The notes under the pieces: generated by a model
Told to the model about the DNA's origin: nothing
Seen by the model: the letters and a program-made list of their open reading frames with translations, nothing else
Databases searched by the model: none
From: a virus
Virus record (IMG/VR): IMGVR_UViG_3300008450_000475
Location: 1 to 23,389 of that record
Reading direction: 5' to 3' (one strand)
DNA length: 23,389 nt
Shown: positions 11,006 through 21,801 of the stretch, in pieces
Numbering within the stretch: the first letter of the stretch is position 1
How the letters are laid out: the number at the start of each line of letters is the position of its first letter
Translations under genes and position numbers: made by a program

Positions 11006-11034
11006 TTGCCATATACAAAAAAATGTAGTATAAC
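11006..11034 (+). promoter_or_regulatory. Sigma70-type promoter for gene 55
   Basis: TTGCCA (11006-11011), 17-base spacer, TATAAC (11029-11034): five of six consensus bases at each box with ideal spacing. The start site would fall near 11041, upstream of the GGAGG ribosome site (11050-11054). This lets the late sigma factor be made from a host-type promoter before late transcription begins. It lacks the CGWWTC spacer element of the 18-22 kb promoters. Confidence 0.75.
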
Positions 11035-18315: not shown

Positions 18316-18344
18316 TTGACATTCACTCACGAATCGAGTAGTAT
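18316..18344 (+). promoter_or_regulatory. Family promoter P1 (HAD gene), spacer GANTC
   Basis: TTGACA (18316-18321), 17-base spacer, TAGTAT (18339-18344). The spacer holds CGAATCG with GAATC (18331-18335) ending 3 bases before the -10, as in P3 and P5. The predicted start falls at about 18351, on the A of the HAD start codon, so the transcript may be leaderless. Confidence 0.75.
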
Positions 18345-18350
18345 ATAAAT

Positions 18351-18956
18351 ATGATTGGTTTTAAAGAGTTTATAAGTGAGTCGCAAGACAGTGCCGGATT
18401 AACTATCTGGGATATTGACGAGACATTGTTCCGTACCAAAGCCCGTGTCCATATCGTCAAAGACGGTAAGATAATCAAGACACTGGGTAACAAGCAATAC
18501 AATACATATAATTTACAGCCGGGTGAATCCTTTGACTTTAGCGAGTTTAGGGACGCCCGGCATTTTCGTGACACCAGCGAACCTATCGCTAAAGCGATTC
18601 GCAAATTGATTGCAATGCATAAAAATATTAAGGCCCGTGGCAGTAAGATGATTGTCATTACCGCTCGGTCAGATTTCGATGACCGTGATATTTTTCTGGA
18701 TACATTTCGTCAACAAGGTATCGATATTGATGATATCCATGTTCACCGTGCTGGCAATCTAGGCGCTATGCCGTCTGCTCCAGCCAAGAAAATCTTTATT
18801 AAACAATACCTTGACACTGGTAAATTTACTCGCGCTCGTCTCTTTGATGATGCCGTTTCCAATCTCCAGATGTTCAAAGATTTGGCAGATGAATATCCAA
18901 ACATTAAGTTTGAGCCATTCTTGGCTCATGCCGATGGGTCAATGACACGTTTTTAA
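18351..18956 (+). CDS. HAD-superfamily phosphatase-like protein
   Basis: 201 aa. Motif I W-D21-I-D23-E-T-L-F (nucleophile and acid/base Asp), motif II V-I-T104-A-R-S-D, a motif III Lys in A-K-K-I-F-I-K-Q-Y (146-147) and motif IV R-L-F-D166-D167-A-V. The set is complete for a HAD hydrolase; the I-T-A-R-S/T-D and F-D-D-x-x-x-N-L forms resemble phage polynucleotide-kinase-phosphatase and nucleotidase-like HADs, so a nucleotide or nucleic-acid phosphate is a reasonable substrate guess. The N-terminal F-K-E-F-I-S-E is a short segment common at the start of T4-like phage proteins. No Shine-Dalgarno precedes the ATG; the promoter places transcription start at the start codon. Confidence 0.85.
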   Translation: MIGFKEFISESQDSAGLTIWDIDETLFRTKARVHIVKDGKIIKTLGNKQYNTYNLQPGESFDFSEFRDARHFRDTSEPIAKAIRKLIAMHKNIKARGSKMIVITARSDFDDRDIFLDTFRQQGIDIDDIHVHRAGNLGAMPSAPAKKIFIKQYLDTGKFTRARLFDDAVSNLQMFKDLADEYPNIKFEPFLAHADGSMTRF

Positions 18957-18957
18957 C

Positions 18958-18985
18958 TTGACATTACCATCGTTTCGTGTATACT
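18958..18985 (+). promoter_or_regulatory. Family promoter P2 (secreted protein gene)
   Basis: TTGACA (18958-18963), 16-base spacer, TATACT (18980-18985), beginning one base after the HAD stop. The spacer carries CGTTTC at the position where the other family members have CGAATC/CGATTC, so it lacks a true GANTC. The start near 18992 leaves a very short leader containing AAGGAG. Confidence 0.8.
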
Positions 18986-19006
18986 AATAATATAAGGAGA
19001 ATGATT

Positions 19007-19369
19007 ATGTTTAAGTCTATTATTTCTAGTATTATTGCGGTCAGTGTTCTTGCTACTCCTGTAGTAGCAGAAGCCAAGGGTCGTGGTGAACACCGCACTG
19101 AACGCCACGAGCGCAAACGCGGCAATCATATTAATACGGGCGAAGCTATTGCTATCGGTCTAGGCGCATTTATTCTTGGTGCTGCTATTAAAAACAACAA
19201 TAGCCGCGACGAGGAAGTTGAGCGCGAAGTTTATGACCGCGAGTATCAATATCACTATCGTAACCGTGATGCATATTATCGCCGCGACCGTAACTGCCGT
19301 ACCACAGAAGTTACTGAATATGACTACTACGGCAATCGATATATTCGCCGTGAGCGCCGTTGTTTCTAA
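19007..19369 (+). CDS. Small exported Arg/Tyr-rich protein
   Basis: 120 aa, unrecognised. Residues 1-23 are a classical signal peptide: M-F-K then hydrophobic I-I-S-S-I-I-A-V-S-V-L-A-T-P-V-V and A-E-A before a cut to K-G. The mature protein begins strongly basic (R/H/E repeats, about 24-41), has a glycine-rich hydrophobic segment A-I-A-I-G-L-G-A-F-I-L-G-A-A-I (about 47-61), then a charged Tyr/Arg/Asp region and two or three Cys (C-R-T-T-E, R-R-C-F end). Bacterial periplasmic proteins with this layout exist, so host origin is possible. ATG 19007 is preferred to ATG 19001 because AAGGAG is 8 bases upstream; a GTG at 18977 lies inside the promoter. Possible roles: envelope modification or superinfection exclusion (inference). 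Confidence 0.75.
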   Translation: MFKSIISSIIAVSVLATPVVAEAKGRGEHRTERHERKRGNHINTGEAIAIGLGAFILGAAIKNNNSRDEEVEREVYDREYQYHYRNRDAYYRRDRNCRTTEVTEYDYYGNRYIRRERRCF

Positions 19370-19378
19370 AAGAATCGC

Positions 19379-19407
19379 TTGACATTTGGTCGCGAATCGA
19401 CTATAGT
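19379..19407 (+). promoter_or_regulatory. Family promoter P3 (VWA gene), spacer GANTC
   Basis: TTGACA (19379-19384), 17-base spacer, TATAGT (19402-19407). GAATC (19394-19398) ends 3 bases before the -10, within CGCGAATCG. The -35 and first 15 spacer bases are identical to P5, and the downstream AAAT-AT-TGATTGAT is shared too. The leader contains a GATT tetranucleotide repeated in tandem (19417-19429) and a GAGG ribosome site (19432-19435). Confidence 0.85.
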
Positions 19408-19442
19408 AAATTATATGATTGATTGATTGATGAGGTTTTGTG

Positions 19443-21668
19443 ATGTCCCAGTTTGCTGAAAAGTCGATTCTCGCCAAGTTGTTGGCGACAGAAAATATCC
19501 ATGTAGAACACCAGAAGACAAGTACCGCTTACTTCAATCTGGAGACCCGCACGGTCGTGCTGCCGATCTTCAAAGAGACTTCGGCTGACCTTTATGACCT
19601 GCTAATCGGCCATGAAGTCGGTCACGCTCTTGAAACGCCTGCTGACGGCTGGCACTCCAGCATCTCTGAGAAGGGTGTGGGCTTCAAGTCTTTCCTCAAC
19701 ATCATTGAAGATGCTCGTATCGAACGCAAGATGAAGAACCGTTACCCCGGTCTTCGTCGGTCGTTCTACAATGGTTACCAAGAACTCTTCGAAAAGAATT
19801 TCTTCGGTGTCGAAGGTATGGATGTCAATAAGCTAAAGTTCATTGACCGCATCAACCTTCACGCCAAGGTCGGTTCGTTTTTGAACGTCAAGTTCTCGGA
19901 CGAAGAACAAGCGATTGTCAATCGTCTTGACACCCTTGAAACGTGGGAAGATGTGGTTGCTCTCGCCAGCGAACTCTACGAACGTGCCGAAAACTCGACC
20001 GAAGAACTTGACTTCGAACAATTCATGAACGCCCTTGGTGATATCATGGAAGATGGTGACGGTGAATTCGACCCGAGTGCGGACTACGTTGAAGTTCCTA
20101 ATTCGGACAACTCCGATGACAAAGAAAAGCCACAGACGCCTTCTTCTACGGGTCAGAAATCAGAAGACGAAACAGAAGAGCCTAAGTCTTCATCGTCCGA
20201 TGATACCGAAGAAAAGTCAGAAGAAAAGTCAGAAGAGAAAGAAGACGGTTCGTCTGATGACAGTGAGTCTGATGATACAGAAGAAAGCCCTGAGCCGACT
20301 TCGTTCACCGATGAGAACTTTCGTCGGAATGAAGACAGCCTGCTTGATGCAAACGCCCGTGAGACGTTTTATGCCAAGCTCCCTATTCTGAACCCGGCTG
20401 ATTTTATTGTCGGTATTAACACCGTTGAAAAGATGTTGAAGTTCTCTGTTGGTGGCGCCGCATACCGAGCAGGCAAGACTGCTGAACAAGTCAAGATGGA
20501 ACTCTACAAGGAGTTTCTTGCCAAGAACAGCAAGTACCTTAGTTCAATGGCACAGGACTTTGAACGTAAGAAAAAAGCCAAGTCGCTTATGCGCGCCCAG
20601 ACTTCCAAGACTGGCCGCATCAACATGGACAAAGTGTGGGCTTACAAGATTACAGAAGACCTGTTCTTACAGAACACGGTTGTTCCTAATGGTCAGAACC
20701 ACGGCATGCTTCTGTACCTTGATATGTCGGGCAGTATGTCTTCCAACATGTCTGGTACCATGGAGCAGCTGGTTCTGCTGGCTTCGTTCTGCCAGAAAGT
20801 TCGCATTCCTTTTGAAGTTTACGGCTTCATCACAAACTCTAGCGCACCACAAACGTATTTCGATACAGTGCGCAGCCGCAATAACTTGTCGGACCCAAAC
20901 AACCTGATGATTTCTGACCCCAGTTTCCGTATGCTCCAGCTGGTGGCTACCGGTGTTTCTGGCGGTAAGTTCAAGACCCAGATGGCAAATCTTTTGGCTC
21001 TCGGTAATTCTTACAGCCGCAGTTTTCATGACCTTTATCTAGACGGTACCGCTGCCAATTCTTTTGGTCTTGGCAGCACTCCGCTAGAAGAAGCCATTCT
21101 GCTTGGCCGTTACATCGCCGAAGACTTCAAGAACCGCAATCGGGTTGAAGTTCTTTCGTCGGTATTCTTGACCGATGGTGAAGGTGATTGTAACTTTGAA
21201 ACTGTTGGTCATCACAATGATTATCACCGTAAGAACCTAGCTATTGTTGACTCTAAGACTCGTCGCACATTTTTGCAGCAATATGATGGCAATAGCTATC
21301 GCAGCAAGTCTTATTGCAAGGCTCTTTTAGACCTGTATCGTGAGACCACGGGTTCGCGAATGATTAACTTTTACCTAATGGGTTCTTATGACCTCAAGTA
21401 TTTCTTGGCTCGTTCGCTTCTCTCTGGTGTTGCAAGTGATGCCGCCCGCAAGGCTTTCAAGAAGGAGAGCGCCGCTCTCCTCAAGAACACCAATGGCTTT
21501 GATGACCAGTTTCTGATTAAGGCTGGCAGCAGCCTGCAAATCACGGAAGATACTCTGACTGTAGACTCCAACGATAAGAAGGAACTGACCAAGGCTTTCA
21601 AGGCCTTTCAAGATAAGAAATCTATCGGTCGTGTGATACTGACCAAGATGGTCGAAGCGGTAGCCTAA
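19443..21668 (+). CDS. HExxH + VWA domain protein (CobT/NorD-like, MoxR partner)
   Basis: 741 aa. The N-terminal domain carries a zinc-peptidase-type motif G-H57-E-V-G-H61-A-L with a possible third ligand in N-I-I-E89-D-A-R-I-E94. An acidic Ser/Glu/Asp linker (about 197-285) separates it from a C-terminal VWA domain with MIDAS D427-M-S-G-S, the Thr in L-G-S-T-P-L-E-E and the Asp in F-L-T-D-G-E-G-D. This is the layout of VWA partners of MoxR-type AAA+ ATPases (CobT of aerobic cobaltochelatase, NorD). T4-like cyanophages encode a similar pair, usually labelled CobS and peptidase. ATG 19443 is chosen (GAGG 7 bases upstream); an in-frame GTG starts 3 bases earlier. It has its own promoter, and the AAA+ gene follows. 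The substrate is unknown; real cobalt chelation is doubtful because no CobN is visible. Confidence 0.85.
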   Translation: MSQFAEKSILAKLLATENIHVEHQKTSTAYFNLETRTVVLPIFKETSADLYDLLIGHEVGHALETPADGWHSSISEKGVGFKSFLNIIEDARIERKMKNRYPGLRRSFYNGYQELFEKNFFGVEGMDVNKLKFIDRINLHAKVGSFLNVKFSDEEQAIVNRLDTLETWEDVVALASELYERAENSTEELDFEQFMNALGDIMEDGDGEFDPSADYVEVPNSDNSDDKEKPQTPSSTGQKSEDETEEPKSSSSDDTEEKSEEKSEEKEDGSSDDSESDDTEESPEPTSFTDENFRRNEDSLLDANARETFYAKLPILNPADFIVGINTVEKMLKFSVGGAAYRAGKTAEQVKMELYKEFLAKNSKYLSSMAQDFERKKKAKSLMRAQTSKTGRINMDKVWAYKITEDLFLQNTVVPNGQNHGMLLYLDMSGSMSSNMSGTMEQLVLLASFCQKVRIPFEVYGFITNSSAPQTYFDTVRSRNNLSDPNNLMISDPSFRMLQLVATGVSGGKFKTQMANLLALGNSYSRSFHDLYLDGTAANSFGLGSTPLEEAILLGRYIAEDFKNRNRVEVLSSVFLTDGEGDCNFETVGHHNDYHRKNLAIVDSKTRRTFLQQYDGNSYRSKSYCKALLDLYRETTGSRMINFYLMGSYDLKYFLARSLLSGVASDAARKAFKKESAALLKNTNGFDDQFLIKAGSSLQITEDTLTVDSNDKKELTKAFKAFQDKKSIGRVILTKMVEAVA

Positions 21669-21677
21669 AATTACCGC

Positions 21678-21705
21678 TTGACTTCTCCATCGATTCTGCT
21701 ATTAT
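21678..21705 (+). promoter_or_regulatory. Family promoter P4, spacer GANTC
   Basis: TTGACT (21678-21683), 16-base spacer, TATTAT (21700-21705). GATTC (21692-21696) ends 3 bases before the -10. It begins 9 bases after the VWA stop and is in tandem with P5, so the AAA+ gene may be transcribed from two starts. No convincing gene lies between P4 and P5. Confidence 0.75.
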
Positions 21706-21772
21706 AAAATAGTAGACAGAAGAGAGAAAGTGATTCGCTATGAATAATGTTGACACAAAAGGCATTTTGTTC

Positions 21773-21801
21773 TTGACATTTGGTCGCGAATCGTCTATAG
21801 T
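21773..21801 (+). promoter_or_regulatory. Family promoter P5 (AAA+ gene), spacer GANTC
   Basis: TTGACA (21773-21778), 17-base spacer, TATAGT (21796-21801), near-identical to P3. GAATC (21788-21792) ends 3 bases before the -10; GATTCGC 54 bases upstream (21732-21738) is its inverted copy. The predicted start near 21808 gives a roughly 40-base leader with AAAAGG ahead of ATG 21848. Confidence 0.85.

Follow-up and report, generated by a model that had tools for sequence, protein, structure and literature searches.

Five sigma70-like promoters (P1 to P5) lie in a 23.4-kb viral fragment with T4-like gene content (IMG/VR record IMGVR_UViG_3300008450_000475, positions 1 to 23,389; hereafter the window). 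Four of them hold GANTC, the target of the alphaproteobacterial cell-cycle methyltransferase CcrM, between the -35 and -10 elements, always ending 3 nt before the -10. Both the site and its fixed gap recur in the closest relatives of the window (clade A), whereas the group next in similarity (clade B) lacks them, and clade A records encode a methylase that is missing from two clade B records. This suggests that a group of T4-like phages controls its own genes by DNA methylation.

GANTC at a fixed gap from the -10 element

The pattern TTGACW-N7..9-CGWWTC-NNN-TA matches one strand of the window five times (chance expectation 0.00; none in 100 shuffles), at exactly the five promoters in which a first-pass annotation, made from the letters of the window, had described a CGWWTC element ending 3 nt before the -10. 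Both sigma70 hexamers are present in all five. The spacers are 17, 16, 17, 16 and 17 nt long and the gap is always 3 nt, bearing out the claim that it stays constant at either spacer length. GANTC is found in P1, P3, P4 and P5, and the sigma70-like sites at 11006 and 14016 lack the element, both as annotated. When the five spacers were shuffled 200,000 times, neither five CGWWTC elements nor four gap-3 GANTC sites were ever reached. The window holds 67 GANTC where dinucleotide shuffling predicts 106.9, and a count inside versus outside promoters, which the annotation had proposed, places four of the 67 within 143 promoter bases (binomial P = 0.00045). The five promoters are not independent, because P3 and P5 are near copies with most of the spacer in common. 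With the -10 hexamer taken as -12 to -7, GANTC falls at about -20 to -16. The middle promoters of T4 that depend on MotA and AsiA have a MotA box in place of the -35 element; here TTGACA or TTGACT is kept at -35 in all five promoters.

Relatives were fetched with the ATPase gene behind P5 (best 80 contigs). Clade A comprises the 27 close contigs, with 84-100% identity over this gene, and clade B the next group, at about 68-77%. For an unbiased test in three clade A records (G002, G003 and G004) and the window, sites were chosen by TTGACW, a 16-18 nt spacer and TA...T alone, with no gene filter; the counts in this set, in the loci fetched by the ATPase gene and in the clade B records are the unbiased ones. 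Of the 98 sigma70-like sites in the four sequences, 29 have GANTC at gap 3 and one has it at gap 9, with none at the remaining gaps between 0 and 10; one-mismatch forms at gap 3 number 8 against the 29 exact sites. Counts of the GANTC-bearing promoter pattern are 14 for G002 (171.6 kb) and 15 for G004 (103.6 kb), against none for the reversed-pattern control. A wider motif search with the CGWWTC pattern, which the first-pass annotation had called for, returns 53 matches in eight clade A records (5, 14, 4, 13, 4, 4, 4 and 5).

Three promoters of orthologous genes have a 16-nt spacer in one of G002 and G004 and a 17-nt spacer in the other, and the 3-nt gap is kept in all (Table 1). Because spacer length differs between these orthologous promoters while the gap stays, the gap is tied to the -10. 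The spacer change may reflect promoter replacement rather than an insertion or deletion.

The annotated element CGWWTC thus holds in its exact position, whereas its conserved core is GAWTC. The preceding base varies (C or A, plus G once and T once in lineage D, described below), and clade B has spacers like GTTTTG and GTTTCG instead; we reject CGWWTC as a conserved unit. The middle base of GANTC is nearly always A, sometimes T and never C or G.

Conservation in clade A and absence from clade B

Promoters were compared by slots, defined as distances from the ATPase gene. The comparison covered the window, 22 of the 27 loci of clade A and 37 of the 53 other loci; those omitted start inside the gene, are short or are more distant. 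Several loci are near-identical, and the locus counts are not independent. GANTC occupies the P1 slot in all 19 clade A loci with a site there and the P5 slot in 23 of 23, the window included in both. All 10 P3 sites that fall in the P3 slot carry it as well; the slot limits missed P3 elsewhere and admitted one unrelated site. P2, annotated as a family member with CGTTTC, is an exception in the window: 18 of 20 clade A loci carry GATTC there, all save the window and L007, both with CGTTTC. The P4 slot is mixed, with GANTC in four of eight loci including the window and CAATTC in the other four; P4-like sites outside the slot in L024 and L028 also have GANTC.

None of the 135 sigma70-like sites in the same slots of 37 clade B loci has GANTC, the spacers there being GTTTCG, GTTTTG or AAAA-like. 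A second set of 135 sites, from six clade B records (37, 28, 31, 15, 11 and 13), likewise contains no GANTC at gap 3; it has GANTC three times at gap 4, once at gap 6 and once at gap 8. Against the 53 matches in eight clade A records, the CGWWTC pattern has none in six clade B records (control, 1). Clade B promoters (e.g., L059:9939, G009) have a recurrent spacer stretch of their own near the -10. It reads GTTTYG-GG or forms near-palindromes, CCGCAAAATTGCGG for example; it is distinct from GANTC and occupies roughly the same place.

Distant lineages and isolate phages

Two more distant lineages, M and D, and the record G153 were fetched by TTGACA-N7..9-CGAATC-NNN-TA, so that at least one site per contig is pre-selected. 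This returned at least 120 stretches, of which 119 loci were used and 15 records then hand-picked. Two or more GANTC promoters occur in 20 of the 119 loci. In the 15 records the GANTC pattern appears 60 times across 13 records (control, 1), G147 and G153 being clade A-like. Lineage M (G145, G140 and L100) has gap-3 GANTC in 10 of 22 filtered sites and one one-mismatch form; lineage D (seven contigs) has it in 22 of 60, with no one-mismatch form. By median identity of reciprocal best pairs, clade A is closer to clade B (67-72%) than to M (52-54%) or D (33-46%, the extremes coming from 8 and 5 pairs), yet the site is in A, M and D and not in B. With the site present in these remoter lineages and missing from the nearer clade B, its distribution departs from the simplest pattern expected on the phage tree; clade B lost it or clade A gained it.

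A search of isolate phages over their whole length found one match each in Melnitz-2 and CcrColossus. There was none in Cr30, phiM12 and HTVC008M (reversed control 0 in the set with Melnitz-2), nor in Mosig, PAU, phiM9, phiN3, Atu_ph07 and P10VF (reversed control 1, in PAU).

GANTC is under-represented in G002, G003, G004 and the window (observed/expected 0.73-0.80), with ratios of 0.88 in G145, 0.90 in G144 and 0.92-0.97 in clade B. As a host marker this depletion is not specific, since the first 100 kb of phiM12, HTVC008M, Cr30 and Melnitz-2 give 0.61, 0.18, 0.80 and 0.88. HTVC008M, a phage of Pelagibacter, is nearly devoid of GANTC over this length (30 against 165.9 expected; L306-L310), and GANTC depletion is reported for some pelagiphages (PMC9516812).

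A phage methylase of a GANTC-methylating family

Thirty-eight rows of clade A genes have relatives in M or D and none found in B, and one of them is the methylase, a 181-aa protein (L221:15841-16386) with the motifs FAEPCAGDG (S-adenosylmethionine binding) and TNPPW (catalytic NPPW/F/Y). Its gene lies outside the window, hence the first-pass annotation could not see it. The clade A protein matches the DNA methyltransferase family phrog_799 of PHROGs (1.1e-35), as do its relatives in G144 (1.3e-36) and G145 (4e-33) and the biochemically verified GANTC enzyme phiLM21_p027 (3e-61); it has no match in Pfam and none in PDB. Both phiLM21_p027 and 179-aa enzymes of Paracoccus prophages with NPPW/F/Y are reported to methylate GANTC, in an account whose alignment of putative and confirmed enzymes includes the proteins of DSS3P8 and phiN3 (PMC5537653). 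The DSS3P8 protein is 54% identical to the clade A methylase, for which GANTC specificity is a prediction from family membership.

The gene is present at 83-100% identity in at least 43 contigs, among them G001, G002 and G003 (best 80 of 88 relatives), and the window's own genome may carry it too. Relatives occur in G145 (53%) and G144 (63%), records of two distant lineages. In the clade B records G009 and G010 both conserved neighbours are adjacent, with no methylase between them; clade B is known from fragments, and gene absence is safe only for the methylase, where these neighbours are seen together. Neither the gene nor its neighbours were found in G004, a partial record. The methylase has relatives in 45 isolate phages; at least 42 of these are named after alphaproteobacterial genera, and one infects Microcystis.

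An N6_N4 methylase of G004 (L220:1477-2517) was considered as a CcrM mimic and rejected: it has 346 aa, an SPPY motif and no phrog_799 match, and occurs in one of 14 records. Another clade A gene with relatives in M and D and not found in B encodes a zeta-toxin/AAA-like kinase (Table 1).

Probable hosts and their cell-cycle regulators

Permuted tmRNA genes occur in G001, G002, G003, G009, G010, G142 and G144, and all four tested (G002, G009, G142 and G144, from A, B and D) pass the alpha_tmRNA threshold of Rfam, which we take as a sign of alphaproteobacterial hosts for A, B and D. No tmRNA was found in G004, G145 and G011, all partial records, and lineage M thus has no host indication. The tmRNA tags of these T4-like phages include ANDNVAFAGYALAA, ANDNVAFALAA, ANNNYKPSGLALAA and ANDNFAPSEFALAA. 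A search of genomes for the tag ANDNVAFA... gave 24 stretches, and 5 of the 11 loci examined have a permuted tmRNA with the tag; all five are alphaproteobacterial, and four belong to Rhodospirillales or Rhodospirillaceae. Similarity to the phage tmRNA over short stretches is also seen in three loci of Clostridia type.

Alphaproteobacterial hosts, to which the tmRNA of A, B and D points, usually possess both CcrM and GcrA. A GcrA model matches 9 of 10 alphaproteobacterial genomes and neither of two gammaproteobacteria (10 of 12 alphaproteobacteria in a second, overlapping set), and the RAMA domain, as in CcrM, is found in 11 of 12 alphaproteobacterial genomes and in neither of the two gammaproteobacteria.

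In Caulobacter, the GcrA-sigma70 complex activates promoters bearing methylated GANTC. GcrA is reported there to bind methylated GANTC and sigma domain 2 (PMC3667746, PMC7403470), and activation at 40-60 min is reported for cell-cycle promoters with GANTC between the -10 and -35 (PMC4287350). Losses of activity of 60-80% are reported for several host promoters when this control is disturbed (PMC3667746). The phage promoters resemble this class (PMC3667746, PMC4287350, PMC7987155) in having GANTC between the -35 and -10; their fit to the GcrA motif YGAKTCK (given in PMC7987155) is partial. The flanks fit in 17 of 29 sites in A, 13 of 14 in M, 20 of 22 in D and 1 of 8 in G153 against a background of 0.26-0.41, the contigs of M, D and G153 having been fetched with a pattern that contains CGAATC. 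The phage promoters differ from the class in lying in phages, in their rigid 3-nt gap, in a geometry not enriched in alphaproteobacterial genomes, and in that methylation is here a presumption.

Proposed mechanism and alternatives

We propose that these are sigma70-type, probably early promoters of T4-like phages of Alphaproteobacteria. GANTC, in practice GAWTC, would serve as a methylation target built in shortly before the -10, at a constant distance from it. Its adenine would be methylated by host CcrM and/or the phage phrog_799 methylase, and this methylation would most likely set promoter activity. The likeliest reader would be the host GcrA-sigma70 complex, and the phage enzyme would keep replicating phage DNA in the active state. 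Early timing is suggested by the housekeeping consensus and by the clustering of 9 of the 14 G002 matches at 140-162 kb among small genes. We favour promoters that respond to methylation and are read by GcrA, because the geometry fits the Caulobacter class and the flanks partly fit YGAKTCK. We regard the proposal as a whole as evenly poised between right and wrong. The first-pass annotation had offered sensing of the host or phage methylation state, or a regulator's binding site, and its interpretation as a whole is partly borne out: the GANTC/CcrM side gains from the exact site at a fixed gap, the 14 and 15 copies in two clade A records, the distant lineages and the methylase gene, whereas alphaproteobacterial genomes do not have the same geometry above control.

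Several observations weigh against the GcrA-read mechanism. Within the phages, 69 of the 98 sigma70-like sites have no gap-3 GANTC, the pattern is matched just 4 times over the 131 kb of G003 (clade A), and some orthologues have lost the site (AAATC at G002 128023 versus GAATC at G004 72147; GGTTC at G004 97313 versus GAATC at G002 156718). At the middle base only A or T is seen, a tighter restriction than CcrM imposes. The clade A methylase is only 27% identical to the verified phiLM21 enzyme, and Agrobacterium phage Atu_ph07 has a relative of it and no such promoter. In 37 contigs with relatives of the methylase at 48-58% identity, gap-3 GANTC is seen in 1 of 54 sites around the gene, a weak count because the same neighbourhood in 43 clade A contigs itself gives only 3 of 46. 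On the host side, the promoter geometry gives 27 matches against 36 reversed controls in 114 alphaproteobacterial genomes and 24 against 26 in 58, and 1.14 Mb of the GcrA-bearing genome G063, picked for its three hits, shows no clear peak at gap 3; these scans address the class only, as the true host is not among known genomes. The GcrA model also matches a Sulfolobus control, so that a match is no proof, and a phage-encoded GcrA was rejected, none being found in 14 phage records. Caulobacter phage Cr30 lacks the pattern, though its host has GcrA and CcrM. Moderate repositioning of a GcrA site should matter little according to PMC7987155, a poor fit to a rigid gap. Given the lack of enrichment in alphaproteobacterial genomes, the restricted middle base and the absence of such promoters from Atu_ph07 and Cr30, the reader could also be a regulator blind to methylation, or the methylase.

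The former would make the element an operator, approximately GAWTC, for a sequence-specific phage or host regulator bound beside the -10 independently of methylation, its identity with GANTC being incidental. The A/T-only middle base and the geometry at control level in alphaproteobacterial genomes agree with this, and a rigid gap would suit a protein touching sigma domain 2. Against it stand a GANTC-family methylase that is present in clade A and missing from two clade B records in parallel with the sites, and the large excess of exact sites over one-mismatch forms; no obvious regulator stands among the 38 rows of clade A genes described above, of which the Pfam scan covered 7. We consider it unlikely, if well short of far-fetched. 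The methylase could instead act at the promoters directly, binding or methylating a site near the -10 and silencing early genes once its level rises. Clade A has the gene together with the sites and clade B lacks the two, and the site would lie within the promoter region covered by RNA polymerase; Atu_ph07, with its methylase relative and no such promoter, runs counter to this, as does the association of Caulobacter sites between the -35 and -10 with activation (PMC4287350). Repression by the methylase seems to us improbable. Least credible, in our estimate, is a spread of promoter cassettes by duplication and exchange that carried GANTC along without function. P3 and P5 are near copies, TTGACATT is common to many promoters, and some early genes with such promoters are common to A, M and D and not found in B, but the gap is constant while spacer length, flanks and -10 differ, and the site is present in lineages with a median identity of only 33-54% to clade A. 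A further point against it is that clade A is otherwise poor in GANTC, though other phages are as well.

Genes behind the promoters and other features

The T4-like genes of the window encode a tail sheath, portal, head maturation protease, major head protein, DNA helicase and late sigma factor, and by the head protein its nearest isolates are Methylophilales phage Melnitz (68%) and Pelagibacter phage HTVC008M (66%). Further T4-like genes of the window code for SbcD- and SbcC-like nuclease subunits, a peptide deformylase, a Clp-type protease and an AAA_5 ATPase, the gene behind P5, which we take to be CobS/MoxR-like. The positions of the promoters, the genes behind them and features of other records are collected in Table 1.

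Table 1. Promoters, genes and further features of the window (upper rows) and of related records (lower rows)
Feature	Position	Strand	Description
P1	18316..18344	+	TTGACA-17-TAGTAT; GANTC (GAATC) at 18331-18335
Gene behind P1	18351..18956	+	201-aa polynucleotide-kinase-like / HAD-like protein; phrog_415 5.1e-12; PF03767 below its cut-off
P2	18958..18985	+	TTGACA-16-TATACT; CGTTTC at 18971-18976; no GANTC in the window
Gene behind P2	19007..19369	+	120-aa protein, no Pfam match
GANTC just upstream of P3	19372-19376
P3	19379..19407	+	TTGACA-17-TATAGT; GANTC (GAATC) at 19394-19398
Gene behind P3	19440..21668	+	742-aa 'peptidase'; phrog_459 4e-181; weaker cobalamin-biosynthesis (CobT-like) match, phrog_5298 4e-9
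P4	21678..21705	+	TTGACT-16-TATTAT; TGC before the -10; GANTC (GATTC) at 21692-21696
GANTC between P4 and P5	21732-21736
P5	21773..21801	+	TTGACA-17-TATAGT; GANTC (GAATC) at 21788-21792
Gene behind P5	21848..23023	+	391-aa AAA_5 ATPase; PF07728 2.1e-17
Orthologous promoter pair	G002 148333 / G004 84540		before the 156/157-aa gene
Orthologous promoter pair	G002 151419 / G004 86360		before the 118-aa gene
Orthologous promoter pair	G002 157016 / G004 91168		before the 78-aa gene
Kinase gene (G002)	L228:10462-11136		225-aa zeta-toxin/AAA-like kinase (PF06414)
tRNA gene cluster (G002)	L227:5259-13427		24 tRNA genes within about 8 kb
Permuted tmRNA gene	L221:14720-15093
Permuted tmRNA gene	L214:5146-5519
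Permuted tmRNA gene	L206:10400-10704
Permuted tmRNA gene	L281:7442-7865
Permuted tmRNA gene	L292:9383-9782

Relation to known systems and meaning

The predicted methylase resembles the phage GANTC methylases that mimic CcrM, such as phiLM21_p027 and those of Paracoccus prophages (PMC5537653, PMC6536676, PMC7139368), in its phrog_799 family (tested for phiLM21_p027), the NPPW/F/Y motif, a length of about 180-218 aa and its occurrence in phages of Alphaproteobacteria. The passages of these papers on the enzymes make no mention of a set of GANTC promoters in the same phage. Control of alphaproteobacterial phage promoters by CtrA is a parallel in that phage promoters are wired to the host cell-cycle system, with a different regulator; in that study, phages scanned for GcrA sites are reported to show no positional skew of the predicted sites, and CtrA sites mattered (PMC9437464). 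Among the matches listed in a literature search on GANTC, CcrM, GcrA and phage promoters, judged by titles and the starts of abstracts, none concerns GANTC inside phage promoters. What we rate as new is a CcrM-type site built into the promoters of phages whose genes include a methylase from the family of CcrM mimics.

Phages of Alphaproteobacteria are reported to encode mimics of the host cell-cycle methylase often, with their purpose left open (PMC5537653, PMC7139368). Promoters with the target at a fixed position, in a clade that has the enzyme and missing from its nearest relatives without it, make the question of purpose testable. Together, enzyme and sites may act as a switch by which the phage controls its genes. 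Tentatively, and with somewhat more doubt than belief, we envisage a phage-borne epigenetic module in which a lytic T4-like phage combines a CcrM-mimic methylase with about 14 early promoters that bear its target at a single set distance from the -10. Gain or loss would affect the enzyme and its sites jointly, and methylation of incoming or newly replicated DNA would time the early programme. If this is true, adenine methylation by CcrM mimics would join the ways in which lytic phages time their genes.

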